Below are positions 32,501 through 64,000 of a DNA stretch of 64,000 nucleotides, in pieces. Below the pieces are notes generated by a model, which made no database searches, had not been told where the DNA came from, and was given only the letters and a program-made list of their open reading frames with translations. Origin of the DNA: Axinella damicornis (taxonomy: Eukaryota > Porifera > Demospongiae > Axinellida > Axinellidae). How positions within the stretch are numbered: position 1 is the stretch's first letter; each line of letters starts with the position of its first letter. The DNA lies in assembly GCA_963931865.1 (NCBI GenBank), contig OZ007515.1:2632511-2696510 (forward strand). The letters run 5' to 3'. The position numbers were made by a program, and so were the translations under genes.

Positions 32501-35500
32501 AAGCCTGGCCTGAGGTAGACAATGTGAAGAACACAACATGGGAGGGCCTTTTGCTTCCTTTGTTTAAATTGCTCTTCAATGAGGCAGTGGTTTGGGCAAG
32601 CAGAGAGGGAACTTTTGGGGGTCAGTGGACTGGTCTAACACATGGTACTTTCATACCACAAGGTAACACGGTGTCCACTGTGGTACACAAAGTGCTTTCT
32701 GACTGTAATATAAAGCTAGTGGAAGTACCTGACAGAGTTTGGGATGCTCTAAAACACTCAGAGTATTTTTTCCAGTTAACATTGTTATCTCCCAGTATAG
32801 CTCGAAGTGTGTTGCGATCCCACCCTAGTAGTTACCAGGATTTTGATGCTGCAAGCAGGTTTGATCTTCTCAGCTACTGCTTGTCAGATGAAAACTACTC
32901 AGACCTTGATGGGCTTACACTTCTTCCATTAGCTGATGGAAGTTTTGTTGATTTCAAGGTGTTGGGGATAGCTGAGGCCCGATACATTTGCAGTGACAAG
33001 TATCCTCGTGATCTGCTCCCCAACATTGATAACCTGTTGGTGAATCTCCCTGAGAATCCTGAGATTCAAACTAGTTTACGGAGAGTAGCTCTTTCTCAGA
33101 AAACACAGCTTGAGAACTTGAGTGTGGAGTTGGTAGCTCAACTTCTCCCAAAGTGCTTTCCTAGTGAGTCATCATCCTTCAATGCTGAGTGGCTTGAGAG
33201 ATTCTGGACGTGGGTTTCGGCACACAGCTTGAAGCATTTCACTGGTAAGATGGTTCTTCCTCTAACTTCAGAAAGTGATGAGCCAAGCTTCCAGGTCACT
33301 TGCCTCACTGAAAAGTCTTCAGTGGTTTACATTTCAGAAGACTGCTCAAGTGAGTTGCTGAGTGCACTTACCAAGCTACAAGTTCGCTACATTCGCTCAG
33401 ATGAGTTTCCTTACTTGCGTCACCAGAACCTATTCTCATATCTCAACAGGTACGATACAGGCGGTCTGCTCACAGCCATAAAAAATGCATGTCATCTGGT
33501 GTCACAGCTGCAGAATGTCATGTTGACGCATACTGAAGCATGTAGCCTCCAACTATTCCTGTCCACAGGATCTAAACATATTACTGCAGTGCATGAAAGT
33601 GTTCTCCATAACCTTCCAATCTTCACTGTATTGAACCAGAGCAAGCTTTACTCTATAGCAGAAGCTAAACACATATCATGGCAAGGGAAGGCTGTACTTG
33701 AACCAGTTAGTTTTGACATCAGTCCAAATCACTTGCCACTAAATCTGGTTGTGTTTTCACAATCTCAAAACCAAAGGCCCTTGCTTGATGGCATTGACAC
33801 ACCAAACCATGCAGATTGATTTTGTCCTGAACTCACTGTTACCCATGATTGTATGTGGTGCATACCCTGATACCATGCTTGATTCCTTAATGGAGGAGGT
33901 TCTCCAGTTGTCTGCAATGTTCAAATCCCAGTCTCAAAGTGAGCTTACTAACCAGATCACTAACCTTGCCTTCCTTCGTATCAACCCTCACTCTTGTAAT
34001 CGCAAACCTCCTAATCAATTGTTTGATCCTTCTAAAGCGGATCTCAAAGAACTATTCAAAGGTGAAGAGATGTTTCCTATTCATCCCTTTAACCAACACC
34101 TTCAACATCTTCGCAAGCATGGACTACGTCAGACAGTCACTGGACAAGAGATTGTAGACATCATTAATTCAATTAGTACCCAGGCAACCATTTCTCCACA
34201 GGAAGTGACCCCAGTTAGTGTCTCCAGGGCAAAAGCAGTCCTGAAATACTTGAATGTGAACCCTTCTGTGCTGACTGAAAAGGTGACTGTTCGTGGCAGT
34301 TTGTTTTTCCCATTGAAACAAACTCTCCAAACACTAGCCCAACAGAAAAGTTGGTTACCTGTGCTCTCAGCTCCTCCCAAAAACTACCCAAAGTGCTTGG
34401 TGTGGAAGGGAAGAGCCTGCACCTCACATCTCACATCACTTAGTGCCCCTGTGCTCCTTTGTAATGATGGTGATGCCAAGGTACTTCCCTTTGTTGTGGG
34501 CTCACAAATTTTCCTAGTTCAATGCTCATCTTCTAATTTATGCTCGCTTCTTAACTCTGTAGCTGGGGTACCCATCAGTTATGCAGTAGCTCATCTTCAG
34601 CATGTCATCAAACATTGTCGTGAAATTCCTGCAGACACAATTGATGACATAGTATACCAAATTTACAAATATTTGCATGCACATTTCGATGACCTACATA
34701 CATTGCTTCATGCTGACTTATGCACCCTCAGCTGGATATGGATTGAAAGGCAGCACACATTTGTCAGTCCAAACGAAGTTGCACTGGAACAAAATAGTAC
34801 TTTCTGTCAAGACCTGGAACCCTACTTGTATGTTCTTCCATACAGACTTCGGACGTTCTCCAAACTGTTCACCTACTTTGGAGTCGAAGAACACTTCACT
34901 GCATTGCAAATTATCTCTGTTTTGAAAATGGTAAAAGCAAAAGAAACTACTGACTGTTGTGCACTAGCCATTGTGATGAGCATTCTGAATTGGCTGACCA
35001 ATGATGGTCAAAAGCCTGCTGATATCCCTCCTGAAAACCTCTATGTTCCAATTGAGACTCAGTCTGGTGACTTAAAACTAATGGAAGCCAGTAGTGTCAT
35101 CTACACGGATATTGGCTTCCTTCAGAACTATCTTACTTCTGATTCTGAAGAATCATACGTCTTTGTGAATCACTGCATTCATTCTGAAATGGCACGCAAC
35201 CTTGGACTTACCCCGCTTAGTGAACGCTTGGATATTTCTGAAGATGCATTTGAGGATGCTGGCCAGTATGAACCACTCACTGTAAGACTAAGGAACATCC
35301 TTAAAGACTACAAAGATGGGCTGACCATTGTCAAAGAACTACTCCAAAATGCGGATGATGCTGAGGCCACAGAGGTCAACATTTGCTATGACACTCGAAC
35401 ACACCCTGTTAGCCCCAAAACTCTCCTTTATGCAGGAATGGCAGAGTGTCATGGACCTGCACTAATTGTCCACAACAATGCTGTTTTCACGGAAAATGAT

Positions 35501-38500
35501 TTCAAGAACATCACAAAGCTAGCAGCAGCCACAAAAATGGACCAACCCTTAAAAATTGGGAAGTTTGGAGTTGGTTTTTGCTCTGTGTATCATATCACAG
35601 ACATCCCTTCCTTTGTCAGTTGTGAATTTTTGAACATCTTTGACCCAACACTCAAGTATCTTGGCAAGGTAGTCAAGGATAGCACAAAGCCAGGTAAGAG
35701 GCTCAGGTTCACCGACAAGATTGTGGCCTCCTCAAAGCAGCTTGCCCCATATGCTGGTTTATATGGTTTTGACCCCAAAAAACATTATCATGGAACTATC
35801 TTTCGATTTCCCTTCCGCACTTCACCCAGTGATATTAGCCACATTGCCTACAACGAAGTCCACATCAAGCAACTCATCACAGACCTTAAAAATTCTGGAT
35901 CTAGGCTACTCCTTTTCCTCAGAAATGTCCAACAAATTAGCTTTAGTCGCATTGATGCAGGTGACAGGAAACCAAAGCTACTGATGGAAGTCACACGGAA
36001 TCAAGTCAATGAAGTATGGTCAAAGTCATCTGAATGTTTGGCTCACATTTGCCATTATAGAATAACTTCACTTCCTGAGCAATACTGGCTAGTGTCTTCA
36101 CACACTGGTAACATTGAATATGAAACAGGAAAAAAATATGCCACTGCCTCTGTTGCTTGTTTACTGGATATTAAATCCATAGCTAAGCGATCCAAAAAAC
36201 AAACTACCTGCTACCTTCCAAACCCCATTAAGGGTGAAGTGTTCTGCTTCCTCCCTCTGACTGTACAGACTGGACTACCTGTTCATGTGAGCAGTAACTT
36301 TGCTGTCATGACTGACCGCAGGGGGATCCGATCCTCGGATGATGACAATCACATCACAGATGAGGTGCAGTGGAACACTGACTTGATGAACCAAATCATT
36401 CCCAAGGCTTACCACTCCCTACTGGAAGCACTGCAGTGCATGTGTGTGCAGGGAAGTGTTCACCAGGAGGCCTACGATTTCTTCTGCCTTTGGCTTCTCA
36501 AAGATTCTCTAAAAACACATAATCCATGGGACACTGTCATACACCCACTGTTTGAACTAATTTCATCCAGTGAACTGTTCTATTCAAAGTGCACAGCACA
36601 ATGGATTACATTATTGGACAGCAAGTTTCTATCTCCACAGATTCTCTGCCACCCTTCCGCCCACTCTACACCTCAGTGTGTAATCAGTGTAGTAGAAAGT
36701 CTTCATCTACCACTTGTGAATCTTCCCGCTCATTACCAGGAGCATCTGTCACTGGATGATATTCAGTCATGCACTGTTGATGAGAAAAGTTTCTTAGATA
36801 TATTTTTTGATAACATTAGTTCTCTTAGGCAGATCCGCAATGAAGTTCTTCGTTGTTTGCTACTAGCTTTTGCTGTTGACTCAACACGCCAAAAGGAGTA
36901 TCTGCAAGAGTACCTTCAAAGCAATGAAAGCATCCCGTGCACTCCAAAGGGGGCACAACTCAAAAGGTGCAGTGACCTTATTGATCCAAATGCATATTTT
37001 GCAAAGCTATATTACCCAAAGGACAGCATGTTTCCCATTAAAGATTTTCACACCAACAAATTGATCAACACAGCATTACTTCAGCTGGAAATGATCAGTA
37101 ATTCTTTGCCATGGAGCATGCTTACAGAGCGGGCCAGGGCAATCCATGAACTTTACATCAAGGACAGGTGCAAGGCACTTGAAAGGGTCAGGCTATTGAT
37201 AAAATGCATCAATAATAACATTTCACAGTCCACTGATGATTCACTGGAAGTTGAAGCCTGTTCAGATGTGGTTGAAGCCCGAGAGCTGGCAACCATCAAC
37301 TTCCTACCAGTGATGCGAAAGCCACCAGACTATTCCTTGACATGGTATAGTGATTTGTTTGATGGACAAGTCAATTTACTGAGTCCAAGTGAGCTCCTCT
37401 GCGGTGAGCATCATATAATTCTTGCTGGCTCCAAGGCACCCATTGTCTGTGAAGCTCAACTTAAGGAGGGAGGATGTGGACATATTCCACAAAGTGTGCA
37501 ATCCTTTCTAGGCATTCACACTTGTGTAAAAACTGGCACAGTTGTTAGTCAATTGTGCCAACTCATTGAAACCTTTAGTTCGCAACCTGAATTATGTATT
37601 ACATGGACAGAGAAAGCATGCTCCGAAATATACACATTCCTGGAAAGAAACCTTTCTGCAAGTCAGGAGGAAGACTTTAGTAATCTACGAGACACCAATT
37701 CCGTGTGGACTGGCAAAGAATTTGTTAAGCCTCAAGCATGCACAGTGGCAACTACTTGGGCTCACAATGGCCCTTACCTCTTTCGACTACCAGATATCTT
37801 ACAGCATAAACCCAACCTAGTTGCAGCTCTTGCCATCAAGGAATGCTTCTTGCTCAATGACTTCCTAGGAGGCCTGCAGGAAATGTATGAGGACTTTGGC
37901 TCTGAGCCAGTGAGTGAGAAGTGTCAGAAACTCATTCCAACTCTGGTAGATGAAATTACCAACATAAAAGATCTCCCAGAAAGTATGACGTGCTATCTAC
38001 CGGACACATCTTTTGCAATGTGTGAAGCCAGCAGACTAGTTTACAATGATGCTAAATGGTGTGAAGTTGATGAAGAGTATACATTTGTAAACAATAAAAT
38101 ACCACGTGAGTCAGCAATAAAACTAGGAGTGAAGCTGGTCCGAAGCAAATTACTACAGCGGTATGAATCATTTGCTGGAGAAGAATTTGGCCAGTGTGAG
38201 CTGTTAACACAGAGGATCAAAAACATCCTGAGAGAGTATCCATTGGACATAACAATTCTCAAAGAGCTGCTTCAAAATGCTGATGATTCAAAAGCTACAA
38301 GGATGTATGTTATTCTTGACAAACGAAAGCATGGGACAAAGAAACTACCATCAAATGAGTGGAAGGACCTGCAGGGACCTTCAGTTCTTGTTTGGAATGA
38401 TAGTATCTTCAGTGAAAGTGACATCAAGGGAATTCAAGCTTTGGGGCTTGGAAGTAAAAGATCTGATGCAGAAACCATTGGCCAGTATGGCATTGGATTT

Positions 38501-41500
38501 AATGTGGTCTACCACCTCACAGACTGTCCCAGCTTTATTACAAATGGAAGCACATTGTGTGTTTTTGACCCTCACTGTCGATATGTGCCTGGAGCTGGTG
38601 TGCTGAGACCAGGAAGGAGATTTGACAACCTTGATGAAAAATTCTGGTCAAACTGGGCGGATCTGAAGTCAGCATATCTTCGGGAAGGTGTGTCAGGTTG
38701 TCCTAATGAAATGAAAGGAGGGTCTTTGTTTCGATTTCCTCTGCGCTTCACTGAAGAGCTAATGAAACAGTCAGAGGTAGTAGATCACGAGAAACATCAT
38801 AGCTTTACCGTACCATTATCTCCTTCAAGAATGGAACAGTATCTTAAACAATGGGCTCCAGAAATGAAGGAGGCTCTCATCTTCTTGAATCATGTAACAG
38901 ATCTAAAGTTTTACATGATTGAAGATCAACAGAAACCTAAAATGAAGCTAATTCACCACTTTAAAGTCAAGATCAACCAAATAGCAGTGAACCAGCGTAC
39001 ACAGCTCCATAAAATAGCTTCAGGTTTTGACAGAGATAGTGAATCTCATGTTATCACTTATCCACTTGAACTCATTGACACAGTGCTCAAGAAGACAAAC
39101 AAGTGGCTTGTTCAGCAAGGAATTGGAGACATAGGATGTGGTGATCAAGCGTGGTTATTTGTTTCCAAAGTTAAACCTAACCATGGCATAGCTACGCCTC
39201 TCACTCCAAGTAGCTTCGGAAAGGTGCGTAATGAATACAGGGGAACTTCCAGTGGATCTGGAGCAAGTGGGGTTCCAAGTGACTTCAGTGGGTGTTTCAG
39301 AGGGAAGGTGTTTTGCTTTCTCCCTCTCCCTCTAAATTCAAACCTGCCAGTTCATGTGAATGGAAATTTCATTCTGGATGCATCTCGACGCGATCTATGG
39401 CACCCTACCACGAGAGACAAGCCTGATGACAGAACCAGATGGAACCTGGAATTAATGGAAGCAATTGCTTCATCCTATGCTGACTTTCTAGTAAAGTGTC
39501 AAAACTGGGTCATTATGCCAAGCATATATAAGTCCCATATTGAGATTTGGAGTGATATCCAAACATATTACAGAGTCTTTCCCAGATGGTTAGGCCATGA
39601 TTGTGCACCACCAGAGAGAGAACTATTGGAAGTTGCGAAGATGGTGTATCAAAAGCTTATTGCACAAAACACAATGATTGTTGCAGTCATCAAGAAACTT
39701 CCAACAGCAGCAGCAGCTAAAAGATACCACTCACCATCTCCCAAGCTCATTGACAATTTACAAGTTGAATGGCATCCTTTAATGAATAAGAAGGATCCTT
39801 CAAAACAAGCATATTTTTGGCATCCTGCTGAACATGAAAAATCTTTGATTCCAGTTCTGGAGAGTATTGGAATGCAATTAAGTGCCGCACCCTTGAGTTT
39901 GCAACGTCACTTTTCGGATCAGAAAATTGGACTCCCTGTAGTCTCACGAAAGTCCGTGTATGAATACTACAAGATGTTCCACAAACAAGTAACCTCCACA
40001 AGTTGTCACATCCCTTGTCACATCATTGAAACCACATTTCAGTCAGTGACAAACTTTAAAAGGTTCACTACATACCTCCTTTGCACCTCTAGTGGTGCAG
40101 CAATACATGAAGAGTTTCCTGAGCCACCATTCACTCTTCCTTTGCTATTAACAGCTGATGGACAGCTTCGCATTTTTGCTGAGACTGACAAAGTGATCCA
40201 ATCTGATTTTGCATGGCTGTTTCCTGAAAGTGCAGACAAGTTTCTCCACCCAGAGCTGCTTGAAATTAAGTATGTTCCTACTTACTTCCGGCAACAGTCT
40301 TCAGGAAACTGGGCACTTGTCTACAGTATTCTCTCGGCTGTGCTACCAAATGCATTTTTTGCGCAAAGGGTGCCAAAAGCAGATAAATATGTCCAAATTA
40401 CATCTCTGCTGAAACCTCTATGGAAATGCCTCACAACTGATGTAATATTCTCACACCATTTGGAAGCAGTAGTACGAGAGTGGGCTCTACTGCCATCTAC
40501 AACACATGAACTGTTTTCAACAAAAAATCAGCTTCTTCCTGTTGTACCAGAGGTAACTCCTTCTAGCTCTGTAACACTGAATCTTAATCAGCGCGTCTTT
40601 GAGTTAATCCAAGAGATTGGAATGCCTATTCTTGATGTTAGCATAACCACCCCAGATCAGTGCGGAACATTCTGCCCTAAGTTGTCTGAACCTGAAAGGA
40701 TCCTAACCAATTTGCATTACCTCCACAATGATGCAGATGAATGTCTGTTATCACTCCAGACTAGCGAGTGTGTTGATAATAAAATTTCCTTGCTCTTTGA
40801 ATACCTGAAACAGATCCATTTTGCACATGATAAATCAGAATCAAGCCTCCAGAAGCTAAAATCGCTGCCCCTTTTCAAAAACATTGATGGTAATTTCTGC
40901 ACATTGCTTGGAGATGTGTACATCTGGCCATGCCATATCAGCATGGCAGGCAGTGAGAATTGGCTGAGGAGAGCAAATGCAGTTTTTCTAAAATCGGATG
41001 GTATTTGTAACAAGTTGGGCCCACCATCATTGCTGGGAATTACTGAGATATTTCCCACAGAGGTGTATCTCAAATTTGTCCTTCCTCATTTTCAACTACT
41101 GTCAAATGAAGACAGACTGGAACAACTGCGACACATTCGTGACCAACTCTTCAGTGATGCTCACAATGTTAGCAAGTTGACAGGAGAGTTGCATACAGAG
41201 AGAGTATCAATTGCCTCTCAGTTCATTACAGCATTGAAGCAACTTTCCTGCCTACCAAAAGATGGCATTCTCAGGCCAGTGTGTGAATTCTGTGATCCCA
41301 AAGTACCTATCTTTGTCACATTCCATGAGTCTTCAAGTTTTCCACATAGAGAATTCCGCAATGAAGAATGGCTGGAGTTCTTTCGCAAAATTGGACTGCG
41401 CACAAAAGTCACACAGGATGAGTTTCTTGGGTTTTGCCGCAGAGTATCCAATGGAGAGCACACGAAACTCAGGGAGGCTTCTTCTGTTCTATTACAGTAT

Positions 41501-44398
41501 TTAATTCAGTCCACAGACTGGTATGAACAGTATGAGTTTTTGTCCCAAGTATCAGAAATCCCTTTTGTGTGTGCTGAGAAGTTGGAAAGATTGAGTTGGA
41601 TAAGACAAGTATACCCAGCAGAAAATTGTATCCAACAAGGCAAAAGATGTACTGACTTAACTCAACTCCGCAATGCTGCGCTATTCAATGACTGTGAGCT
41701 TGTATGGACAATGAAACCAGTCATCAAACTTCCCACTCTTCCAAAGGGCAAAAGGGTAGAGAATTTTAAGGCATCTCTGTGCATTAATACACCTCCAACC
41801 TTTCTTGAAGTAGTTCAAAATGTGTGCAATATCTCAGAAACCCGGTTTTCGAAGTTTGAGCTGTTTGACAAGTACCCTGAGAATTGCAGAACGAAGAAAC
41901 GTGCTCACTCTGATAGAGATGAGACATCGCTGCTGCTTACAGTAATGATTAAGAACTTTGAATATCTCAAAATGAAGCTCTGTCCAGAAGACAAGCTTAA
42001 AAGGCTGTGTGGTGTAGCCTGCATCCCTGTGTGTGTGGAAGGGAAGACTAGTGGCATCAGGCACCCAGTGTTGGTTAAACCACAACAAGTAATTGCTTCG
42101 GATACAGAGACACTGAAGCAATTCCATCCCTTCTTGAACCCCCTTCCAGATGAGTTGTATTCTATTCTCCCAGGCCTTCTTTCTGTACTTGGTGTGCAAA
42201 GTGATATTCATCTTGAGCATGTCAGGTTTGCACTTGAGACTGCAAGCATGTTCAGACAGCCACTGGATGTGAACACAGAAAGCACAGTGATGGATCTTCT
42301 CGTAAAGTTGTACTACCTTTTACAAACTGTTAGCCCTACAACAATGCCATCACTGAGCCCCCTCTACCTTCCCAGCACTGGGCACCAGTTAATTGACAGT
42401 AAGCTGGTGCTCTACCACGACACAAGATACTTTGAGAAAGGCCATTTTGATTTGTCCAAAGTGTCATATGATCTATTTTCTCTTGCGTCCTCAACTAGTG
42501 AGGCACATGTGATTACTAAGAGAAAGTTCTGTCGTAGCTTACCATCTAATGTTAGTCCAAAAGCTCTCTTGGAATGTTGCATGGGAAAATTGCATGAAAA
42601 TTGTGCTAATTGCATTGAGAAGACACTCTCGGACTTTGCCAAGAAACTGCAAAAGTCATTGTCATTGGCAGTATTCCCCAAAGCTGCATGTGCTATATTA
42701 AAACACCATTCAAATGGAAAAGAACTCTGTTCCCAGTTCACTGAGTCACTTGGAGTGTTCCTCCAAAACGTTGAGATCTTTTCAGTGAGGAACCTTGAAA
42801 TTAATGTGTTCCTTAAACTTGTCGAGCCAGCACAGAAAATTGGTATGGCAAAAGTGGATTTCCTTCTCCGAAGGAATGAAGAGTCATTTTTGTTGTATGT
42901 TGATTCTGACGTATACGCCCTTCGACCAAACTTCTTTGAGTTGCTAACAAGTGCCATTGTCTCTTGTGTAGCTGAAATTGGTGGAATTGATGTCAAGTCA
43001 CTGAAGGAACCCAATTTATCTGTATCACATCTCCTTAAAGCAGAGACACCCGATGATGTTTCAAAGCTGCTTGAAGACTTAGACGTGCACTTTGAATTTT
43101 CAGATGTGGATCTGCAGGATTCATTTGACCCAAACCTGAAACCCAAACTTGGAAGCTCCATTCCAGAATCATGGCACCACCGATTACAACTAGACATTAA
43201 CAATGTTTTCAGGCCAGAAGAATGGGTAGGGTATGAGGAACGAGAGGGCTTTATTGTGTTTGCATTAGTGGCTCATCGTGTTACTGTCCCTTATGAAGAG
43301 AACTCTGAATCAGAAGAAGTTGAGCCTCTGGAACAGTATTTGATCTACACACATGAAGGTGATGAAGGAGGCAAAGTTGTCAGTGTGATTGAGCTGTACA
43401 AAATTCTCCGTGCTAAGTTGAGAAGATGTGTGAATGAAGAGGCTGGCACAGAGTTGGTACTGTTTGATCCTGATGCTGATTCTGCTCAAGTCTGGAGTCT
43501 TTTAGAAGGTGAAGAGTTTAAGAAAATCAAGAAAGAAATCTGCAAACAGCTCAAGCGTATTTGGATACTACCAGAGACACTCCGAAGGAAGGCAATCAAG
43601 GCACTTTACCTCAAGTGGCACCCTGACAAGAACAGTCATCCTCTTGCTACAAAAGCCTTCCAATTCCTTCAGCGTCAGATTGCAATACTTCAAGAATCCC
43701 CTGAAAATCATGAAGATGGGGAAGAAAGTAGTGCGGACGACCCATGCCCAGATTTTCCGCATTATTTCCTGTTTGATGAGTGGGATGAAATAGCTAGAAG
43801 TCACCGGCGCGCCAGGGAGCAAGAGCATATGCACTTTACTGGCCAAGGAGGCTTTACTGGCCAAAGAGGCTTTACTGCCCAAGGAGGCTTTACTGGCCAA
43901 AGAGGCTTTTCTGGCCAAGGAGGCTTCACATATGGCTTCAACACTCGTCCCAGACCAAACCAGACAACAGCAGCAGTGTGGATAAAACAAGCTAAAGCTG
44001 ACCTAGAAGCCCTCCAGCTCTTGTTCGTTCAAACTGGTCACCACCCACATGTGTGTGCACATGTATGCTTCCTTGCACATGAAGTTGCTGAAAAAGCACT
44101 CAAGGCAGGAATGTATGCTGAATGTGGTCTCCATGCTGAAAGTTTGCGAAACCATGAACTTGAGGGTCATGCTGGAGCACTTGAGCAAGAAAGACCTGCT
44201 CTAACTTTTGGCCTGAGATCTTATGCACGTTCTCTCCGAGACCATTACCTCAAACCCCGCTTTCCAAACCAGTATTCCTCACCCATTGTGCCTTCTGATG
44301 TTTACACACAGGACCAAGCCAGAGATGCCCAAAGCAAAGCTCAGAAGATCTTTGAAATGATGACAAAGGTTGTTCAACCAGAAAATTGTGTACATTAA
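26591..44398 (+). CDS. SACS-like: Sacsin-like giant co-chaperone (3 Hsp90-type modules, J-like domain, HEPN)
   Basis: Sacsin is a large cytoplasmic chaperone regulator linked to Hsp70 and, in vertebrates, to mitochondrial and intermediate-filament upkeep. Exons: 26591-26695, 26817-27075 and 31589-44398; phases agree. About 4390 aa (human 4579), without the N-terminal ubiquitin-like domain. Three GHKL ATPase modules carry [18 protein letters not shown] (residue 36 on), [18 protein letters not shown] (about 1371) and [18 protein letters not shown] (about 2347). A J-like domain has [15 protein letters not shown] (about 4130), and a C-terminal HEPN domain has [16 protein letters not shown] one-base frame change falls near 33800-33825: the first frame ends TPNHAD-stop, and the next frame continues [12 protein letters not shown]. 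This is a true frameshift, an assembly error or a small intron (a GTGTTT...ATGCAG pair at 33750-33822 would also restore the frame). The rest is open, which argues for a working gene. Confidence 0.93.
27183..27262. mobile_element. Palindromic MITE, GAGGCTA family
   Basis: TAGCCTCATTCCCAGGCCCC on the left, AACGAGGCTAG on the right, with the internal CGCAAGCAACGAAAAG motif shared with copies near 4130, 6335 and 47240. Confidence 0.6.
28222..28843. mobile_element. Element nested inside the 28151-29019 transposon
   Basis: Inserted at a TTTATT site, with loosely inverted A/T-rich ends (TGATTTATTAAACAATTATT / AATAATTATAATAAAATCA). It holds a 151-bp palindrome (28231-28381), a duplicated 40-bp motif (GTTGGTGTTGCAGTTGCGAA twice, 28405-28495) and the coding relic described next. 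Confidence 0.65.
28411..28641 (-). pseudogene. Relic of a ZMYM2/QRICH1/KCTD1-type (Crypton-derived) N-terminal region
   Basis: An ATG-started frame encodes [19 protein letters not shown] and then [18 protein letters not shown], the pattern found at the start of Crypton-derived tyrosine-recombinase-like proteins (DUF3504 relatives). The frame soon degenerates into the duplicated 40-bp repeat, and no recombinase domain follows. A transposon relic inside the nested element. Confidence 0.5.
29228..30265. mobile_element. 1.04-kb element with 60-85-bp terminal inverted repeats
   Basis: TGTCTGTATTCGGTGGACTG on the left pairs with CCACCGAACACAGACG on the right. The inverted repeats are built from GGACTGGACT / AGTCCAGTCC steps. 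The interior contains a CTGCTGCTCCCCAATTGC-type repeat whose frames look spurious. Superfamily not determined. Confidence 0.7.
30363..30475. repeat. 24-bp tandem repeat, four copies
   Basis: Unit TAATTGGTAACTTATGCC plus TGTCAC, in the sacsin intron. Confidence 0.9.
43835..43924 (+). repeat. In-frame 18-bp repeat in sacsin (FTGQRG hexapeptide, five units)
   Basis: Five hexapeptides ([30 protein letters not shown]) form a flexible Gly/Gln/Phe linker between the J-like domain and HEPN. The DNA units are nearly identical, indicating recent expansion. Confidence 0.95.
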
Positions 44399-54372: not shown

Positions 54373-57300
54373 GTGTGCATATGGAGGAACAGGACAATAA
54401 ACCACGTAGTGGGACATAGCCCCTAGCTAGCTATATATCACCATAGTCTCTCGCTAATATACATAGTAAACATCCTCCGTCTCTTTAACAAACCTTTCGA
54501 CCTCACCACTTCATCACCTTAAACATTTGCATATGAGTGTTCAAGTAAAAGCCCCTTTAGACTCAATGCAATGAAGAAATAGGAGGGCGTATGATTGAGA
54601 GACAATGGTAGTCCCATCATTTCAGCTTACATCCGAGTAACCGTGAGGACAGAGGAACTGTGCCAGCAGGGTCAAGAGGGCACTGAACATCCCTGCAGTA
54701 ATCCCCCACACCACCAGCAGCACCCAGAAGGAGCAGTTGGTCATCACCTGCAGACATGCAAGGAGGTACCATGGATCATAGCCAGTACATACATGTACTC
54801 ACATGCACACGCAACTTCATAAGCATCAATGCATAATACTATGCATGGCAGTGTAGTTATAGTTTCAATGGTGATTGCATATCAAGACTTTGTGTATTTT
54901 TGTCAATAAAAACCGAAGAACAAAAACGGGATAGGCCTGGGCCAGGGAATGAGGCTGCCAATGGGTATGCGTAGCATATCCAGTTCATTTCTGCTGTCCC
55001 TTATTGGAAGCAATAGTCAGTATACAAACATTGCAGGTCGTAGATTTCCAGGTTATAATCTTTATATGCTTCAATGCGGAAGAGTGGCAAAAACAGGCAA
55101 GGTCCTGGGAGCAATTAAATAGTCATGTGAAGTTTCCACACTAAACTGTGGCAAAGAATTGCTGCTAACCCAGTGTGAACAGCCATATGAATGCTCTCAC
55201 TAACAGTATTCACACCACAGCACTACCTTCCTGAGTCCCCTGAAGAATGGCTGGCCCTGTTTCTGGGCACTTGGTGAGGGAGGGGTGGGTGGACGCTTCC
55301 ACCAATAGGCAATCACAGCCAGAACAGCACCAACTGCAGCTGGGATTGTGTATACCCAGATCTGTGCAGTTCACAGTGGAAAATATGATGGTCAAATTTC
55401 GGATCAAATCATTCAACATGTCTGTCATGATTACTTACCAGTGTGGGTAGTCTGTGGGTGGTTGTGACAATGTTAGGGGAGATAAGGAGAGCGCTTGCAA
55501 GACCTATAGAGTTGCCTGAAGCATAAAGAAAGACACAACACATGACCAGTTTGCAAGAGGCAGATACAACTATGGCACGACTGTTCAAAATCACTGTGGA
55601 CACATAATAAAGCTATGTGCATATGCTGGACGATGAAATGGACTTATTTAACAACTTTCTTTTGACGATGAAAGGAGGTTTGCTATAATAAAAATTAATG
55701 GTAGATGGGTAGGCATGCCATCAAAGAGCTTTTTAACCTACAGGCTATACCATTCTGATTCCCAAGCATCATGCATCCAGCAATAAACAGTTTCTATTGA
55801 GTGTGGTTTTGGTAATGAGTTCAAAAGCATGCAAGCAATCATTGCTCACCAAGGGAGGCCAAGTTTACGCAAGTTGCTCTTTCCTTGGGCCCGAACCAGA
55901 CACCAGCTAGCTTTGTTGGGGAGTACAGGAGAAATGGCTGTGCAAAGGCAGTGAGAACTTGCCCCAGCATTGCCACAAAATATCCTGCATGCCCATATAC
56001 TGAAGAGCACACAATGGGGTGGGCAGTGCTAAGACAACGGAAGACCGAACCAGCCAAGTTGAATCCAGCACCAAGATAAATCTATGGAATAAGAATGCAA
56101 ATCTTTATGCTACATTTATTCAGACAATGTGCAGGCAATCATTCAACTAGATCCCAACATCCTCATGTGTAGCTACGTCACAAAAGATGTACCAGTACTA
56201 GCTATAGTGGTCACGACTGTCCTTTCAATCCATAAATAACTTCTCGTGTAGGTCGTGAAAGATACACTAGTGGTCATACCAGCTTGCCGAAGTTGTAATG
56301 TTGATCAAAGTGCACAGAGATGGCATGCATAGAAGAGGACACCTACACAACAACACTTCACCCTTTCCCTATGCTACTCAGAGCTGTTGATGGCTGAATA
56401 TTTACTTTATCAATAAGATTTTAGAGGTCATTTTCATCCAGTTAATCCCCCCAAGCGTACGTCACGTTAACATACCCTGATTCCACTACAGAGGAGGCTG
56501 ATTCAGCAGCATGCTGATTCAGCAGTATGCATGAGTCTAACACCCAAGGACAGTCAACAGACATATTCAAACGACCATACACACTTGATGGACAATGTAC
56601 AACATGCAGTATGCTGTAGTGAGACCAACAAGCTTACAGCTAGCTTGAGTCCCCAAGTGTCCAGAATGAAAATGCCCACAAACCCTACCACCACAGAGAC
56701 AACAAAGAATACAACAGACAGCCAGTCCACATCGCTGCGGGAAATACTGTAGAACGACATGACGAAGTCTGGAATGGGAGCGAATGTCAGCCACATCTGT
56801 GGAAAAAAATATACAATTGATACTGGTTTTATAGGGTGTCTCTGGTTAGACTATTGCGTTTTCCTTTTCTTTGAATTGTACATCCCCCTTTAGTTAAGAA
56901 CTAAACAAACAAAAAATAAATAAAAATAAAAATAAATATAAAAAATTGGCAAGAAAGGTGCACACTCATCTGACAATTCACAGTAACGCAGACAATCCAT
57001 CTGCTGCTCGGGCTAACTGTGTAGCCTCAAGACTTAGTGTTTGGTTAAGTATATCACCAGAGAATACACCCAACTATTATAGCTCGAGATTAATTACAAA
57101 GGCTGTGTGTCACTAGTCTAGTCCCCCAAACACTTGACTTAATTCTGTTACTGCTTAGATTTTGACTAATGAGTCGCCTTGTTCTAGAATGTTATTTCAT
57201 TCATTCATTCATTCATCTATGTGTAGACTTGCACACAAATGCAGAACCAGCCGGCCGAGTGCTTCACACTTGGCCAGCTGGTCATGGTATTGAACTTACC

Positions 57301-57740
57301 TCCACCATCTCTATAGCTTATGAGACAGACATGTAGTAAAACAAGAGATGTAGCGTAAACAAGACGTGTAGCATGTGGTAAAACAAGCTAGCCTATGGCT
57401 ATAATACGTGAAACAAGGGAGCACGGTTAGCTGTGTTATGTTTGGTTATCAAACCTACAATTCCATTACTGACGTTCAGCAGAAACAGCGTTGCCAGCAT
57501 AAACCACCGCCATCGGTACAGGCGGAACTTTGACTCGGATTTGGACGGTTCACAACTGCTCTGTTCCGCCCCCTCAGCTTCCTTCTCCTCTGCAACAAGT
57601 GTAAGCGTATCCTTCTCTTCCACACAGTCCTCCTCGATGAACTCATTCTCCAGCAACAACTCCGTATCAGACGTTTCATCGGGCCTTTCCTCGAGCTCCG
57701 ACTCCGAGTTGTCAGCGCGATTTTTGGTTTTGGGCGCAGT
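52906..57740 (-). CDS. SLC49A3-like: SLC49A3/FLVCR-type major facilitator transporter
   Basis: Twelve-helix MFS membrane transporter of the SLC49 group (heme/choline-type carriers; substrate here unknown). Exons on the minus strand: ~57740-57459, 56796-56638, 56081-55850, 55515-55439, 55361-55227, 54747-54631, 54182-54030, 53742-53585, 53353-52906; phases agree. Signature stretches: RLYRWRWFMLATLFLLNVSN, MWLTFAPIPDF, DVDWLSVVFFVVSVVVGFVG, LGAGFNLAGSVFR, AQPFLLYSPTKLAGVWFGPK, LELGVEITYPVVEATSSGIL. The last exon adds a Cys-containing extracellular loop, one helix and an acidic tail. The start is unclear. The exon-1 frame is open back to a TAA at 57741-57743 but has no ATG before helix 1. An ATG at 57783 would fit if one base is missing or extra in the A-rich run around 57720. 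Confidence 0.9.
53391..53449. mobile_element. Short palindromic MITE, GAGGCTA family
   Basis: 59-bp hairpin: TAGCCTCGTTCCCAGG and CCTGGGAATGAGGCTA, with inner GCTCGGTA / TACCGAGT arms. Cleanest copy in the window; intron of the transporter gene. Confidence 0.85.
54190..54377. repeat. (GT)n microsatellite
   Basis: About 190 bp of GT/TG with few interruptions, starting a few bases outside the transporter exon at 54030-54182 (near its 3' splice site). Confidence 0.97.
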
Positions 57741-57797
57741 TTATACGGAAATCCGTAAAATTCCGTGACACGCAACCGAGCATTAACCCTGTTGTCA
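57741..57797. promoter_or_regulatory. Very short divergent promoter between transporter and USP-Ulp1-MULE gene
   Basis: The two divergent coding regions are separated by no more than about 60 bp, or 14 bp if the transporter starts at the ATG at 57783. No TATA box. Second head-to-head pair in the window after ECI2/SEH1. Confidence 0.5.
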
Positions 57798-60700
57798 ATG
57801 CTATTCACGCGCACGTGGAAACCGCGCGTAAGGCGCGCGAAATACAAAGGCAAAATATTAATTGGAATGAAGCGGCTGTCTACATCTCTGTCAGGAAGAA
57901 AGGACCCTACCAGGGTGCCTATGCACTCTTCGAACGTTCCAAGTCGCCCGGCTGGGGAAGTGTATAACTGCGGCATGCTCCCTGCTGGAATTTCCAACTC
58001 AGCAAATAACTGCTACAGCAGTGCAGTCCTCCAGTGCCTGTTCAATCACCCTTCCTTCCCATCTCTTTTCAATCAGCTGTTTTCTAGCCATCCCCAACGT
58101 TGTAGTTCTGACAGCTGCAAATTTACAGGTTAGTGAATATTCAATTGAGCTCACAATTATTCAAGTATTAGCTATAGCTAATACTTGTATAATTGTGAGC
58201 TACTTCCAGTTTCTAACTTGTTTCAGGTGAGTTCTGCAGTGTTGCTGCACTCAGAACACTATGGGATGGGTACAAATACTCCCTCATGGGTACCAAACTG
58301 TCACCAGCACCACTGTTAGCAGCTTTGAAAGGTATATGAGGTGATTATGATATGCATACAAAAGACAAGTTTCCAGATTCATTGCTGTATATATTTCTTG
58401 CTAGACATCTCGCCAGCACTAAGGCGAGGAGTACAGTTCGATGCTCAGGAGTTCTACCTTGCTCTAGTTTCAAGTTTGTTGACGAAGGCTGATGCACAGT
58501 AAGCTGTAGCTCGAAATACAACGTATGGCATCTATAATGAAGTAACTGCTCCTCTCCAGGCATGCAGCAGCAATTCAGAAGAGAATAGCTGTGGAGAAGA
58601 CACAGAAAAGTAAGGTAGTAAGGAAGTTAATAAGGACAAAATATATTGCATTTCTAATATCTGGTACAGCGGCCTGCGGCCAGTGCGGGAAAATATCATC
58701 ACTAATGAGAATTGATGAGCTGACTATTGAGCTGCATGTTGGGGTGAGTGGGGTGTGCACATGTACAAAACAATATTCACTATAGCAGCTCAATTATTTC
58801 TTTCTCTGCATGTAGGAAGACCGGTCTGTACACGTTCAGGACCTGTTCACGGAGTCACTCGATGATGAGGCTGTTACGTGTAACTGTGATGGGTACATTT
58901 CTTGCTGTTAACTGTTTTCTCACAGATCATGCATGTGTGTTTACTGCTGTCCTTACATGTATGCACAGATGCAACAGGAATGTGACCAAATGGCAGCAAC
59001 ACAGCCTCTCCTCGTTGCCAGAGCTGCTTTGTATCCATATTCAAAGTACAACGAACGTGTCACCCAGCTCTGACCCCCCCAGTGTTCAAGTGCAAGTATG
59101 TTATTTTTACTGTCAGCACTGACAGGCATGTATGGCTTAGTATAAACATTGTACATTGATATTATCTTGTAGAAGTCAACTCTGAAAGTTCCAGGTCACA
59201 CAGTGACCTACAGTCTGACTGGAATGGTTGTTCATACTCGTATATCCGAGACCTGTGGTCACTACAGAGCATTTGTTCGCTCAACCAAGGACAACACACA
59301 GTGGTTTTCAGTTGACGATCTAAAGGTACATGGATTGTGCACAACATCAACATAGTAGTGTACATGCAGCTCAACCACCCTTAACTTTGTTTGGTAAATT
59401 GGTACCCATGCAGGTAACCCCAGTAAGTGTTGCAACAGTTCTCCTTCAACAGCCCTTTATGCTATTCTACCAAGCCCAAGAAGGGGTGGAAACACTTTCC
59501 CTCGATGCCTGTTGGAGATTACGAGGGTTTTGGTGGCTAAACGATGAGGTTTGTTTTAGTAGCTATAGGTAAAGCTTTGTAACTCATTCAACACTGCTCC
59601 TTCCTGGTGTTAGGTTATTGCGTCCTACATGACTATGATTCAGCAGGAAGCAGCCAAGGTATACAGCAATATTAATGAGTATGACATCAACGCATCATGT
59701 ATGACTACACACCACAGGCTGGGAAAAAGGTGCTTGTGTTGGGCTCCCATTTCTTTCAGCAACTACAGAAGGGCACTCACACACTATCACGGCACCAGAA
59801 GGTGAGCTTGGACTCCTAATCACTTAAAGGCCAACGTATAGTGTGAGTCTTCATAGCAGTGCATCATCTATAATACTGGGAATTAACTTGGGATACTGTA
59901 TATATGTGTCCCTATAGGAACACCTTCCCAGCCAAGACCTGGTCATGTTTATCATCCATGACAGTGGTAACCACTGGACCCTGCTGGTAAGAGAGTGCAG
60001 ACACTTAGTGGATGCTGAAAGGACTGATAGCTACCACAATGGTCATGTATAAACTTTGTGGTAGGAAAGGGAGGTGTATATGTTGGGGAATATTTTTGTT
60101 GAACAGTCTCTCATGGTTTCTGGTTTGTTAATGACTTCCAGGTTGTGGATTTCAACAGGAAAAGCATTGAATACTATGACAGCTTGCTCAAAGAGAACAA
60201 TGCTCACATGATCACAGCTACGTAAGACATTGAACACAGTGAAATTCAAATTTCAGAATATTTACGTTTGACCAACACACTGATCCAACCTCAGGGCCTA
60301 CATGGAAGCAAGCATTGAGAGTGCTGGAGAGCACGTCAACTGGGCTGAATGGAGTTACGTTCACAAGAAGGTATAACCTTTATCCATCTCATGGTGGGAA
60401 GAATATTATAATTGTAACCTCATTGGTATCTCTTTAACAGAATATACCAAAACAAACCAATGCAGTGGACTGTGGGGTGTTTCTGTGCCAAGTAAGATAT
60501 GCCACATATCTACCGAATATGTCCGTTACTAACAATAACTTTCTGTCTCATGTACCCGTACATATGAAGTATGCACTGCATCGGTCCCGAGGAGACCCCA
60601 CATGCTATCGGCAGGTATTGACTAGTGAATCTGACTATATACTTCAACAGCATGTAAGTTGATGTAACAACTGGTAATGAAAATTGGCCCTTTCAGGAAG

Positions 60701-63700
60701 ACATGGGGATAGTGCGAAAGATGATGCTAGAGGAACTGCTGAATGGTCACCTGATGTGAGTAAAAGTATCCAGCTTCACCCTAAAATCTCTTCTAACAAA
60801 CTCTTGGTCTTCGTCCTTTCTCAATTACTATACAGTGCATACAGAGAGCGGTTGGATCTCATCAGTAAAGGTACAGGCAGAAACTCTGCAGCATTCTATG
60901 ACAGCAATACGTTCCTTGAGCCTGCATTGGCAAAGAAATACCATAGAGAGGATATCAAATCCATTCCTAAGCCATCTCCACCTGGTTCAGTCATTCTAGT
61001 AGCTGCATATAACCTTCCGGAAACCTCACAATCTCTCAAGCCACTGTCTGCTACTCTGCCAGTAGAAACATCATACTGTGAACTAACTCCACACACTAAT
61101 AGGACCAATGAGCTCTCCCCACCCCACTCAGCTCCAAGGCAGTTTTCCGACCCTCCAACAGGTCCTACTCAACTGCCACAACCCAGCAACCGACAGAACT
61201 TGCCAAATAAAACAACTTGTCAGCCAACTACACCGTCCAATCAGCCCTCCCTACCAACTACGGCGCCCAATCAGCCCTCCACACCAGCTACAGTGCCCAT
61301 TCAGCCCTCCCTACCAACTACACCGCCCAATCAGCCCTCCCTACCAACTACGGCGCCCAATCAGCCCTCCACACCAGCTACAATGCCCATTCAGCCCTCC
61401 CTACCAACTACAGTGCCCAATCAGCCCTCCACACCAGCTACAGTGCCCATTCAGCCCTCCCTACCAACTACAGTGCCCAATCAGCCCTCCACACCAGCTA
61501 CAGTGCCCATTCAGCCCTCCCTACCAACTACAGTGCCCTATCAGCCCTCCACACCAGCTACAGTGCCCATTCAGCCCTCCTCATTAATATCCTATGAGGG
61601 ACCCAGGCAGCCTTCTCTCTCACTAAGGAAGCACAAACAGCTATCCTTTACCAGGAAGAGAAGTAGTCAGACCAACTATGTATTTACTTCCAAGAAATCT
61701 TGCGATGACAAGCAGCCAACCCAAATATCACCTATGACTCCATCATTGGCCATCCAACCACTCTTGTCCAAACCGTCACCTACATGTATGACACCACCTC
61801 CCACTTCAACACCACTATCATCGCCCACTGTCAGCCCTCCCAGTAACTCACTGGCTACTACCCACACCACTCAGAAACTTTTCAGCCCTCCCAGTAACTC
61901 ACTGGCTACCCACACCACTCAGAAACCTGTCAGACCTCCCACTAACTCATTGGCCACCTACACCACTCAGAAACTGGTCGGTGTTTCCACTGAACCACCT
62001 GCTGAATCTTCCATTCGGCTATCCTCTTGCCCCATGACTCAGCAATCAGATAAAACCTCATCTGCGTCAGATTTGATGCCAACTTTCCCTGATGATGACT
62101 TCACTACAGTGCCATCACCCAGTCCACCTCCATATAGCCCTATACCCAACCATGACATTGTTCATGACAGTATTGATCTTGACACAGAATATACTGGCAA
62201 GCAGTTACCACCACTATTATCATCTGTCCTCCCAAAGGGATATACCTATATTTTTCAAAGGTTAAACTACACACAGAATTCCAATAATCTGGCATTTTCA
62301 GCCACCATTTTCATTAATACTGCATCAGAAGCAGGAGCGACTGAATGGATCAAAGATCTTGAAGCCTATACAGCAACAACATACCGTGTTACAAGAGGAA
62401 ATCGTGTAAAAGGCTGTCGGATTTTGTATAAGAGTGACCGACACTGCCAACACAAACGCAAAAAGTCTTCCAAGTATAAACCAGAAAAGACCCAGTCATT
62501 ACAGAGAGATAAGAAGACCGAGTGCCCAGCTCATTTCACGATAAAGGTGCACAACACAAAGGCCAGGCATTATATCACTCATCCATGTGAAGTAACGATT
62601 ACATGGGATCATAACCACTCAACTCAATCTGCACATGCACTCAGTTTTAGACCAATTAATAGTGAAACTAAACAGAAGTTTTATAGCTACTTTGACTTAG
62701 GTCACTCTCCCTCCTCTGCTATCCACCACCACAGCCTAAATCTAGCTATTGAACATGGCGGCAAAGAAAAAGAATTTGAAATTGCACATGCAGACCGTTC
62801 CATAAACCCACTCCCAAACGACATCTACTATCTGTATAACAAATGGCGAGTAGACAAACTTGGCCCAGAGAATGGAGAGAAAATGTTTGAACAATTAGAA
62901 ACACTTATAAAGGCCTACAATGAAGAACATGGAGAAGAAGGTGGAAGAGCATTCATACAAAGGTATGAAAAGCAATCTGTACAGACCACACCGGAAAAAA
63001 CAACATCTGACCAGCCTCTTGTGCTAGCAATATGTACTCCACTGATGGCTCGTGCTCACAGATTAGTGAGGCAGGCAGGGGAGCTAGTATACTGTGACTC
63101 AACTTCGAGTTTGGACCGGTACAATTGCCCCACGTTTGTGATGAGCACATGCACGTCAGCTGGAGGCATTCCCTTGGGTGTAGTAATAACTTCAGGTGAA
63201 AGCGAAGACGTCATTACAGAGGCAATGACATTCTTGAAAACTGTCTTACTCACCAATGCCTTTTATGGAAAAGGGGCTAATGGGCCAGAGATATGTATCA
63301 CTGATGATTCAGATGCGGAAAGGGCAGCTCTCAGAAATGTCTGGCCAGATACCACCTTTCTTCTATGCATTTTTCATCACTTGCAGAGCTGGTGGTCATG
63401 GTTGTGGGATGCTAAGCATGGCATAGCTAAGGAAGACCGCCAGCCAATTATGCTCCTGGTAAAAAGTATGCTGTACACACCTCATGAGCAAGACTTTCAC
63501 CAAAAGTATGTTTCTATTATGAAGAAGACTCCAAACAGCTACACAACACAATACCCTAACCTCCGTCATAGACTGGAGCAGATTTGGGAGCGTCGATCTG
63601 AGTGGGCTCTCTCCTACAGAGTAGACAAAATAATGAGGGGAAACCATACTAACAATTATGCGGAGGCAGGAATGAGAATCATCAAGGAAATAGTTTTTGG

Positions 63701-64000
63701 AAGAATAAAAGCATACAACCTAATACAGATGTTTGAGTTTGTCACTGTGATAATGGAAAAGTACTTTGTGAGTAGACTACTAGACATGGCACACAGCCGA
63801 TTCAGACCTGGAATTGCTATGCGCTACAAAGAACTCCATGATGTAGAAAAGCAAATAACAGGTACCAAAAAACTTCGAGATTCTACATACCTTGTAACAG
63901 TTGATGTAAAGAATATTGGTGAACTTGAATATTTTGTAGACATGGACATTGGAGTGTGCTCATGTTCCAGAGGTTATAGTGGTGCTGCTTGCAAACACCA
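57798..64000 (+). CDS. USP deubiquitinase - Ulp1/SENP protease - MULE transposase fusion (3' end beyond the window)
   Basis: Seventeen exons visible: 57798-58128, 58227-58331, 58405-58498, 58560-58743, 58816-58892, 58969-59095, 59173-59325, 59414-59548, 59614-59658, 59718-59801, 59918-59986, 60142-60221, 60295-60370, 60441-60491, 60570-60614, 60697-60755, 60836-64000. All phases agree; at least 1626 aa. (1) USP domain: Cys box GISNSANNCYSSAVLQCLF (C72), QFDAQEF, Cys pairs of a zinc finger, His box TCGHYRAF (H336). (2) Ulp1 domain: WLNDEVIASYM, GNHWTLL (H464), VVDF (D471), QTNAVDCGVF (Q525, C531). (3) Pro/Thr/Gln-rich tandem repeat. (4) MULE DDE domain: YCDSTSS (D1326), ITDDSDAERAA (D1395), LLCIFHHLQ, NYAEAGMRI (E1515). 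(5) Start of a SWIM finger, CSCSRGYSGAACKH, at the edge. All catalytic residues are present. The start could also be the ATG at 57867. It is either a mobile-element gene that captured two proteases or a host gene derived from one. Confidence 0.9.
58149..58203. repeat. Hairpin in intron 1 of the USP-Ulp1-MULE gene
   Basis: GAGCTCACAATTAT... pairs with ...ATAATTGTGAGCT around CTATAG; arms of about 26 bp with one mismatch. It fills over half of the 98-bp intron. Confidence 0.85.
61224..61590 (+). repeat. 60-bp coding minisatellite (20-residue unit, about six copies)
   Basis: In-frame unit QPSLPTTAPNQPSTPATVPI with small variations, joining the Ulp1 domain to the transposase part. All three frames stay open across it, so frame had to be fixed from both sides. 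Confidence 0.95.

Follow-up and report, generated by a model that had tools for sequence, protein, structure and literature searches.

What kind of gene would place a ubiquitin-specific peptidase (USP), an Ulp1 peptidase and a transposase in one reading frame, and what would the peptidases do there? The question is raised by the end of a 64,000-bp window of the sponge Axinella damicornis (contig OZ007515.1, 2,632,511 to 2,696,510), where an initial annotation had read a single gene of this kind and had proposed either that a host gene and a transposon had fused or that a transposon protein had been tamed by the host. We searched the genome (226 Mb, 120 contigs) for related loci; C1, C2, C6, C7, C8, C9 and C11 below denote contigs as well as the copies on them, the window copy being C11. 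When the loci around other matches to the Mutator-like element (MULE) transposase were compared with the window copy at the DNA level, the whole block turned out to be repeated. The comparison shows the predicted gene to be the coding content of a MULE-type DNA transposon with terminal inverted repeats. This transposon family apparently encodes one giant protein that joins its transposase to a USP and an Ulp1 peptidase.

The transposon and its copies

The copy on C2 is intact. It is 7,187 bp long with terminal inverted repeats of about 75 bp that are 96% identical, and its 18 exons hold 1,836 codons and end in a TAG stop 213 bp ahead of the 3′ end. Target site duplications of 9 bp were found in all three copies with both ends readable, among the seven places that hold a large part of the element (CAATACTAG in C2 and TTATACATG in C6, both exact, and GTTGTCAGC with a single extra T in C11). 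MULEs are described with target site duplications of 8-11 bp and, in a survey, with terminal inverted repeats of 14-500 bp (PMC6446971). The initial annotation had proposed to look for such repeats, 9-bp duplications and extra copies, and all of these are present. We regard the anatomy and the transposon nature of the predicted gene as practically certain. The features of the window copy are as follows.

57708..57716, no strand: 5′ target site duplication of 9 bp, GTTGTCAGC; past the element's 3′ end it recurs with one extra T
57717..57790, plus strand: 5′ terminal inverted repeat of about 75 bp; in C2 it matches the reverse-complemented 3′ end at 96% identity
57798..60755, plus strand: exons 1-17, coding for USP and Ulp1, with GT-AG introns of 59-155 bp
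57798 to 60491, plus strand: exons 1-15 (splicing)
58610-58669, plus strand: intron 4, 60 nt
60570-60614, plus strand: exon 16 (splicing)
60697-60755, plus strand: exon 17 (splicing)
60836 onward, beyond the window, plus strand: exon 18 (splicing)
57987..59470, plus strand: USP (UCH, peptidase C19) domain, exons 1-9, with C72, H316, D335 and two CxxC pairs (Pfam, USP36 alignment)
59522..60755, plus strand: Ulp1/SENP (peptidase C48) domain, exons 9-17, with H444, D461, Q505 and C511 (Pfam, SENP2 alignment)
60836..62200, plus strand: linker of about 450 aa, rich in Pro, Thr, Ser and Gln and repetitive; first part of exon 18
62202..64000, plus strand: transposase, with a conserved C/H cluster ahead of the DDE domain, the MULE domain and a SWIM-like motif; second part of exon 18, running past the window
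63090..63386, plus strand: MULE transposase hidden Markov model match PF10551 (Pfam)
63957..63998, plus strand: SWIM-like CxCx8CxH motif (sequence, alignment)

The seven places that hold a large part of the element are C11, C2, C8, C6, C9, C1 and C7, all repeat counts being lower bounds. Five full or near-full copies lie on five contigs (C2, C8, C6, C11 and C9), and deletion derivatives accompany them. C8 has the same coding sequence as C2; their identity is 100% across 7,074 bp, and they sit on different contigs with different flanks, which would be an indirect sign of transposition. The last 113 bp of C8, including the 3′ repeat, are missing, and an assembly fault at this copy is possible because a 200-N assembly gap lies 1.5 kb from it. 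The window copy, which is 99.7% identical to C2 across the aligned exons, is broken in its last coding part by a young 5.5-kb long terminal repeat (LTR) retroelement with two identical LTRs of about 467 bp (window coordinates 64526-70058; L009). By position the insertion falls near C2 residue 1765, and about 72 C-terminal residues of C11 are computed to be lost. The gene runs beyond 64000, and the C-terminus of this copy is cut from 64526.

Among the remaining copies, C6 and C9 retain nearly their full length but are damaged, C6 by frame-breaking indels in exons 1-17 (3/4 indels) and C9 by frameshifts and stops, with most of its 5′ repeat missing as well. An internal deletion has left C7 as a 2.2-kb derivative, which also lacks the last 14 bp of the 3′ repeat, and C1 has no 5′ end. 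Fragments include a 3′ piece of about 1.1 kb at C9:3.12 Mb (L052) and short ones at C3:16583463 and C9:7670189. Short stretches that are 77-98% like the terminal repeat and lack the gene were seen at C12:6974184-6989354 and C5:4619151 (L050, L051, L053); judged by their sequence, they are perhaps non-autonomous relatives.

A host origin, whether as a tamed host gene or as a host USP-Ulp1 gene fused by chance to one transposase, had been suggested by the intron-rich 5′ half standing next to an intron-poor transposase exon. However, the intron-rich half sits within the terminal inverted repeats, and the whole gene is enclosed by these repeats and by 9-bp duplications (3/3). Five full or near-full copies on as many contigs, with their deletion derivatives, likewise do not fit a single host locus, and the window copy breaks a host gene at codon 2 and is itself broken. 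Given the repeats, the duplications and the multiple copies, we rejected both the chance fusion and the domesticated gene, and hold a host origin to be extremely unlikely. The concern that an assembly join had created the gene is answered by the independent copies with unrelated flanks.

The window copy is inserted at codon 2 of a host frame, the joined flanks reading MADNSESELEERP... The minus-strand stretches concerned are 57402-57740 and 56557-56850, and a nearby minus-strand frame matches MFS weakly (E 0.012, under the cut-off). The insertion may alter a putative transporter-like gene.

Gene structure and catalytic residues

The window copy has 18 exons and 17 introns, every intron GT-AG, and an open frame from 57798 past the window end at 64000. 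The USP peptidase, the SENP-type Ulp1 peptidase and the MULE transposase with its SWIM-like motif share this one predicted frame. Splicing and Pfam matches to UCH, C48 and MULE thus bear out the single frame of the initial annotation; its in-frame splicing also held, with 17 GT-AG introns in place of the sixteen junctions it had counted. All 17 splice-site pairs are common to C2, C8, C6 and the window copy, and since these copies on four contigs have identical pairs, the arrangement is not a product of chance. GT-AG borders are kept at 17/17 introns in C11, C2, C8 and C6, at 16/17 in the decayed second element L047 described below (the remaining one being GC-AG) and at 15/17 in C9. These comparisons show a predicted protein of about 1,813-1,836 aa, composed of USP, Ulp1, a long linker, a C/H cluster, a DDE MULE domain, a SWIM-like motif and a basic tail.

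There are two candidate start codons, 57798 and the in-frame ATG at 57867 (Met 24). Met 24 may be the true start, because Met 1 (57798) is missing in C6 and L047, C6 has a stop just 5′ of Met 24 in the Met 24 frame, and no constraint is visible in codons 1-60 (0 synonymous and 5 non-synonymous changes between C2 and C6).

In a Pfam scan of the first 517 residues, UCH (PF00443) matched aa 64-356 with E 7.8e-34 and Peptidase_C48 (PF02902) aa 378-517 with E 1.6e-22, residue 517 being the last of the piece scanned. The closest solved relative of the USP domain is USP36 (E 3.1e-15), and by alignment with it we take C72, H316 and D335 to be the catalytic triad. For the Ulp1 domain the closest solved relatives are SENP2 (E 2.2e-25) and SENP1 (E 1.3e-24), with SENP8 and ChlaDub2 also among the matches. 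The initial annotation had named the Asp of 'VDF' as catalytic; instead, D461 in EYYDS, 17 residues past the Ulp1 His and likewise present, aligns with the SENP2 Asp that we presume to be catalytic. Otherwise the USP, Ulp1 and DDE residues listed earlier are all present, with a numbering that runs 20 aa ahead from the USP His onward. This offset fits a reading of the 60-nt intron 4 as exon; the intron 4 stretch (58610-58669) holds a stop in L047.

The MULE match in exon 18 (PF10551) has E 6.6e-7 and 30.1 bits, above the cut-off of 27.6, and the corresponding match in the decayed L047 piece stays under it with 14.2 bits. An integrase was sought in the exon-18 piece (Pfam to E 1) and none was found, the only matches being MULE and two weak EGF-type families. 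The DDE residues D1286, D1355 and E1475 (C2 numbering) are conserved in 4/4 further copies and are also found in representatives C4a and C5 of other MULE families, C4b being gapped at the third position. The CxCx8CxH motif is present in 5/5 aligned transposases; the Pfam SWIM model reached 17.8 bits against a cut-off of 19.6 in L047 and is unlisted for the window piece, which stops at the motif. Altogether 18 residues (the USP triad, four zinc-type Cys, the four of Ulp1, DDE and the four of the SWIM-like motif) are kept in all four copies compared with C2 (C11, C6, C9 and L047).

Selection, chain continuity and a second lineage

Codons were compared by the Nei-Gojobori method using our own script, with C2 as the reference in every comparison. 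The Fisher tests used rounded counts and took sites as independent, so their p values are approximate, and the comparisons share C2. Between C2 and C6, dS/dN (synonymous/non-synonymous divergence) was 0.045/0.006 for USP, 0.033/0.002 for Ulp1, 0.030/0.022 for the linker and 0.024/0.007 for MULE, which gives dN/dS ratios of 0.13, 0.07, 0.71 and 0.27, respectively (Fisher p 5e-4, 0.008, 0.48 and 0.004; USP and Ulp1 together 7.8e-6). For C2 and C9 the ratios were 0.27 for USP, 0.26 for Ulp1, 0.61 for the linker and 0.43 for MULE (USP and Ulp1 together p 2.8e-4). The comparison of C2 with L047 gave dS/dN of 0.135/0.028 for USP, 0.202/0.020 for Ulp1 and 0.338/0.274 for the linker, with ratios of 0.21, 0.10 and 0.81 (p 1.8e-7, 2.3e-9 and 0.19); the MULE ratio was not computable, its synonymous differences being beyond correction (296.5/384 sites). 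This pattern shows purifying selection on the predicted USP and Ulp1 domains (dN/dS 0.07-0.27 in three comparisons), which the linker does not show.

The codon data bear directly on passive gene capture, in which USP and Ulp1 would be transduplicated host exons with no function for the element. MULEs do pick up gene fragments (PMC6446971; PMC2528002). Yet the three more diverged comparisons give both domains ratios of 0.07-0.27 and the linker 0.61-0.81, the checked catalytic residues are conserved in 4/4 further copies, and C2, C8 and C11 each have the whole module in one frame with the transposase. Passive capture is disfavoured on all three grounds and we consider it very unlikely; the codon patterns show the predicted peptidases to be a cargo maintained by selection rather than passengers.

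Whether this cargo and the transposase form one chain can be judged from the copies. In C2, C8 and C11 the frame runs from the peptidases into the transposase without a stop. In C11 (2/2) and C6 (5/5), every indel of the linker and transposase has a length divisible by three, compared with 0/1 and 5/14 of the intron indels, and those of the linker alone also keep the frame (C11 1/1, C6 3/3). The alternative is two proteins per element, encoded by a peptidase gene and a separate transposase gene that starts within exon 18. Such an arrangement would suit a linker that is free to evolve (dN/dS 0.61-0.81), and several MULE groups are given with 1 or 2 open reading frames (PMC6446971), but the uninterrupted frame and the in-frame linker indels speak against it. 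Two proteins therefore appear unlikely, and a single polypeptide highly probable.

L047 (C2:6347500-6357400) is a decayed second element whose peptidase module is similar to that of C2 and whose transposase is much more diverged. Its identity to C2 is 0.73 over the first 200 bases of the peptidase half and then 0.77-0.96 per 200 bases to element position 4000; in the transposase half, from positions 4200 to 6400, it is 0.57-0.77. The terminal repeat of the first element type is absent from L047, and a search for inverted repeats of its own gave none that were convincing. A third, decayed place at C2:11154528-11160701 holds pieces resembling both halves, those of at least 100 bases being 73-78% identical to L047 and 71-81% to the window peptidase part; the catalytic part of Ulp1 was unmatched there. 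This place is rearranged, since pieces of both halves are present twice, one of them inverted. The simplest reading is that a USP-MULE arrangement existed before the two transposase lineages diverged, with a later exchange or conversion of the peptidase module between them. Such an apparent exchange suggests that the module is useful by itself.

The genome holds 51 MULE matches, in a list that leaves out C9 and L047. Four of them have a UCH match within 15 kb, all belonging to the USP-Ulp1-MULE family. No C48 match was found within 15 kb of the 51, which is uninformative as the six-frame C48 list misses even the family's own split Ulp1 exons. The peptidase part had no match in the other MULE families C4a, C4b and C5 (tblastn, E 1e-5).

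Several further loci carry peptidase matches. C48 and UCH matches lie within 14 kb on one strand at C12:10693808-10707807 (minus), and the two lists have no other pair of this kind within 20 kb; this is perhaps a host neighbourhood or gene with both peptidases and a possible source. UCH matches at C8:38953, C8:3342400, C8:5604734 and C13:4112202 have similar model positions and the same internal stops (4 TGA, 3 TAG) and are perhaps another repeated USP family; no listed MULE match lies within 40 kb of them. The intact C2 copy stands about 125 bp from a stretch coding for GNTCFANSMLQCIFHTP (L012 about 5880-6010; C2:9549229-9549348), with an inverted-repeat stretch of about 110 bp between; by eye, the coding stretch looks like a Cys box belonging to a USP gene of the host, in which case the USP-carrying transposon would lie within or next to such a gene. 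Elsewhere in the window, a sacsin-type gene occupies 33743-44395 on the plus strand as a single frame of 3,551 codons (SACS E 2.2e-148, HEPN, weak DnaJ), and overlaps a 757-codon frame at 31546-33819.

Possible roles of the peptidases and known systems

Taken as a whole, the data suggest that the element disarms tag-based cellular control so as to move. DNA-bound proteins, including ones stuck on DNA, can be modified by SUMO (small ubiquitin-like modifier), ubiquitinated by SUMO-targeted ligases and then removed, and several silencing pathways require SUMO. The transposase part would carry both peptidases to the element ends and the transpososome, where the tethered peptidases, acting in cis, would strip off SUMO and ubiquitin. 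The most likely outcome is that the transposase on the DNA, or host factors at the element, would escape SUMOylation, and subsequently ubiquitination and removal by the SUMO-targeted ubiquitin ligase/proteasome route; SUMO-dependent silencing would thereby be blunted too. With a SENP and a USP on one chain, both steps of the SUMO-then-ubiquitin route could be reversed. The domain assignments support the earlier idea that a transposon protein could act on both modifiers.

Several observations weigh against this interpretation. C2 is the sole end-to-end intact copy among those read (C11, C6, C9, C7, C1 and L047 are damaged and C8 is truncated), and between C2 and C11 there are too few changes to judge selection (synonymous/non-synonymous: USP 3/1, Ulp1 1/0, linker 0/6). 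Indels in the linker and transposase are often frame-breaking in the decayed copies (multiples of three 4/17 in C9 and 16/23 in L047), which we take as decay, and a transcript initiating in exon 18 would make a separate transposase. The USP is dispensable for being a MULE in this genome, because 47 of the 51 matches have no UCH match within 15 kb. Finally, some enzymes with the USP fold or of the C48 family target other modifiers, SENP8 and ChlaDub2 being of this kind.

On balance, peptidases that are active and of use to the element are probable. A MULE with a selected peptidase cargo acting at the element is, with somewhat less assurance, our best explanation as a whole, and the cis mechanism against SUMO and ubiquitin is put forward tentatively, as plausible rather than probable. 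Its most specific form, a two-step shield against SUMO-then-ubiquitin removal in which the tethered SENP and USP undo both marks and the cassette is swapped between MULE lineages as a unit, is possible but less likely.

The main rival is that the peptidases act on chromatin and not on the transposase. Guided to the element, they would remove SUMO and ubiquitin from, for example, silencing factors or histones and so relieve the family's copies of silencing; for VANDAL elements, VANC proteins achieve this in a different way. VANC proteins counter silencing (PMC10398659), Ulp1-carrying VANC (KIU) genes occur in anti-silencing VANDAL elements (PMC13317346), and the Ulp1 domain described here is of the SENP type. 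On the other hand, KIU shares its element with two other coding genes, and its Ulp1 is described as being of unknown function (PMC13317346). Anti-silencing at chromatin is possible, and we rate it below the action in cis.

Compared with known systems, the element differs first from domesticated MULE genes of the FHY3/FAR1 type, which are single loci without terminal repeats, whereas the present one is multi-copy with terminal inverted repeats and duplications. Ulp1 is described in MuDR (Mutator) elements of hydra, lancelet, Arabidopsis, maize, rice and melon (PMC2836005), in the same or the reverse orientation relative to the MULE transposase (PMC2528002). Like these, our element is a MULE encoding an Ulp1/C48 peptidase; unlike them, it adds a USP, with both peptidases N-terminal to the transposase in one frame. 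The Arabidopsis KI-MULE lacks terminal inverted repeats and has Ulp1 in reverse orientation (PMC2528002), and both it and the KIU VANDAL elements, also without such repeats, keep Ulp1 in a separate gene, whereas here there are terminal inverted repeats and Ulp1 is in frame with the transposase. The hydra MULE MuDR-6_HM is closer in being an animal MULE with a ubiquitin-peptidase-type domain, but this domain is OTU instead of USP and no Ulp1 is listed for it (PMC6446971); the main text of that survey does not contain the words ubiquitin, protease, SUMO or peptidase. Trichomonas XP_001314237.1 (transposase_11 + Peptidase C19) similarly joins a C19-type peptidase to a transposase, though one of another family (pfam01609) and with no mention of Ulp1 (PMC2836005). 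Ginger1 elements with OTU or Ulp1 are animal transposons with terminal inverted repeats whose transposase chain carries a deconjugating-type peptidase, but they have a Gypsy-integrase-like transposase, a C-terminal peptidase and one peptidase per element in Table 1 of their description (PMC2836005). Membership in Ginger1 was ruled out, as the exon-18 piece gives MULE and no integrase in Pfam.

MULE with Ulp1, MULE with OTU and C19 with a transposase are thus already published, and a protein with USP, Ulp1 and MULE was found in no publication of the searched literature, a scope that excluded most subscription journals and in which no Repbase record was seen; unpublished or merely annotated relatives may exist among the proteins of other species. 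An earlier proposal gives Ulp1 and OTU domains a possible part in activating DNA repair factors, either in the course of transposition or after it (PMC2836005), and according to a 2026 review Ulp1 in plant MULEs still has no known function (PMC13317346). Here the question of function becomes testable by two single-residue changes in one protein, because a single predicted chain unites both kinds of peptidase with the transposase, because the family has an intact copy and another whose coding sequence is identical, and because both domains, and not the linker, appear to be under selection.

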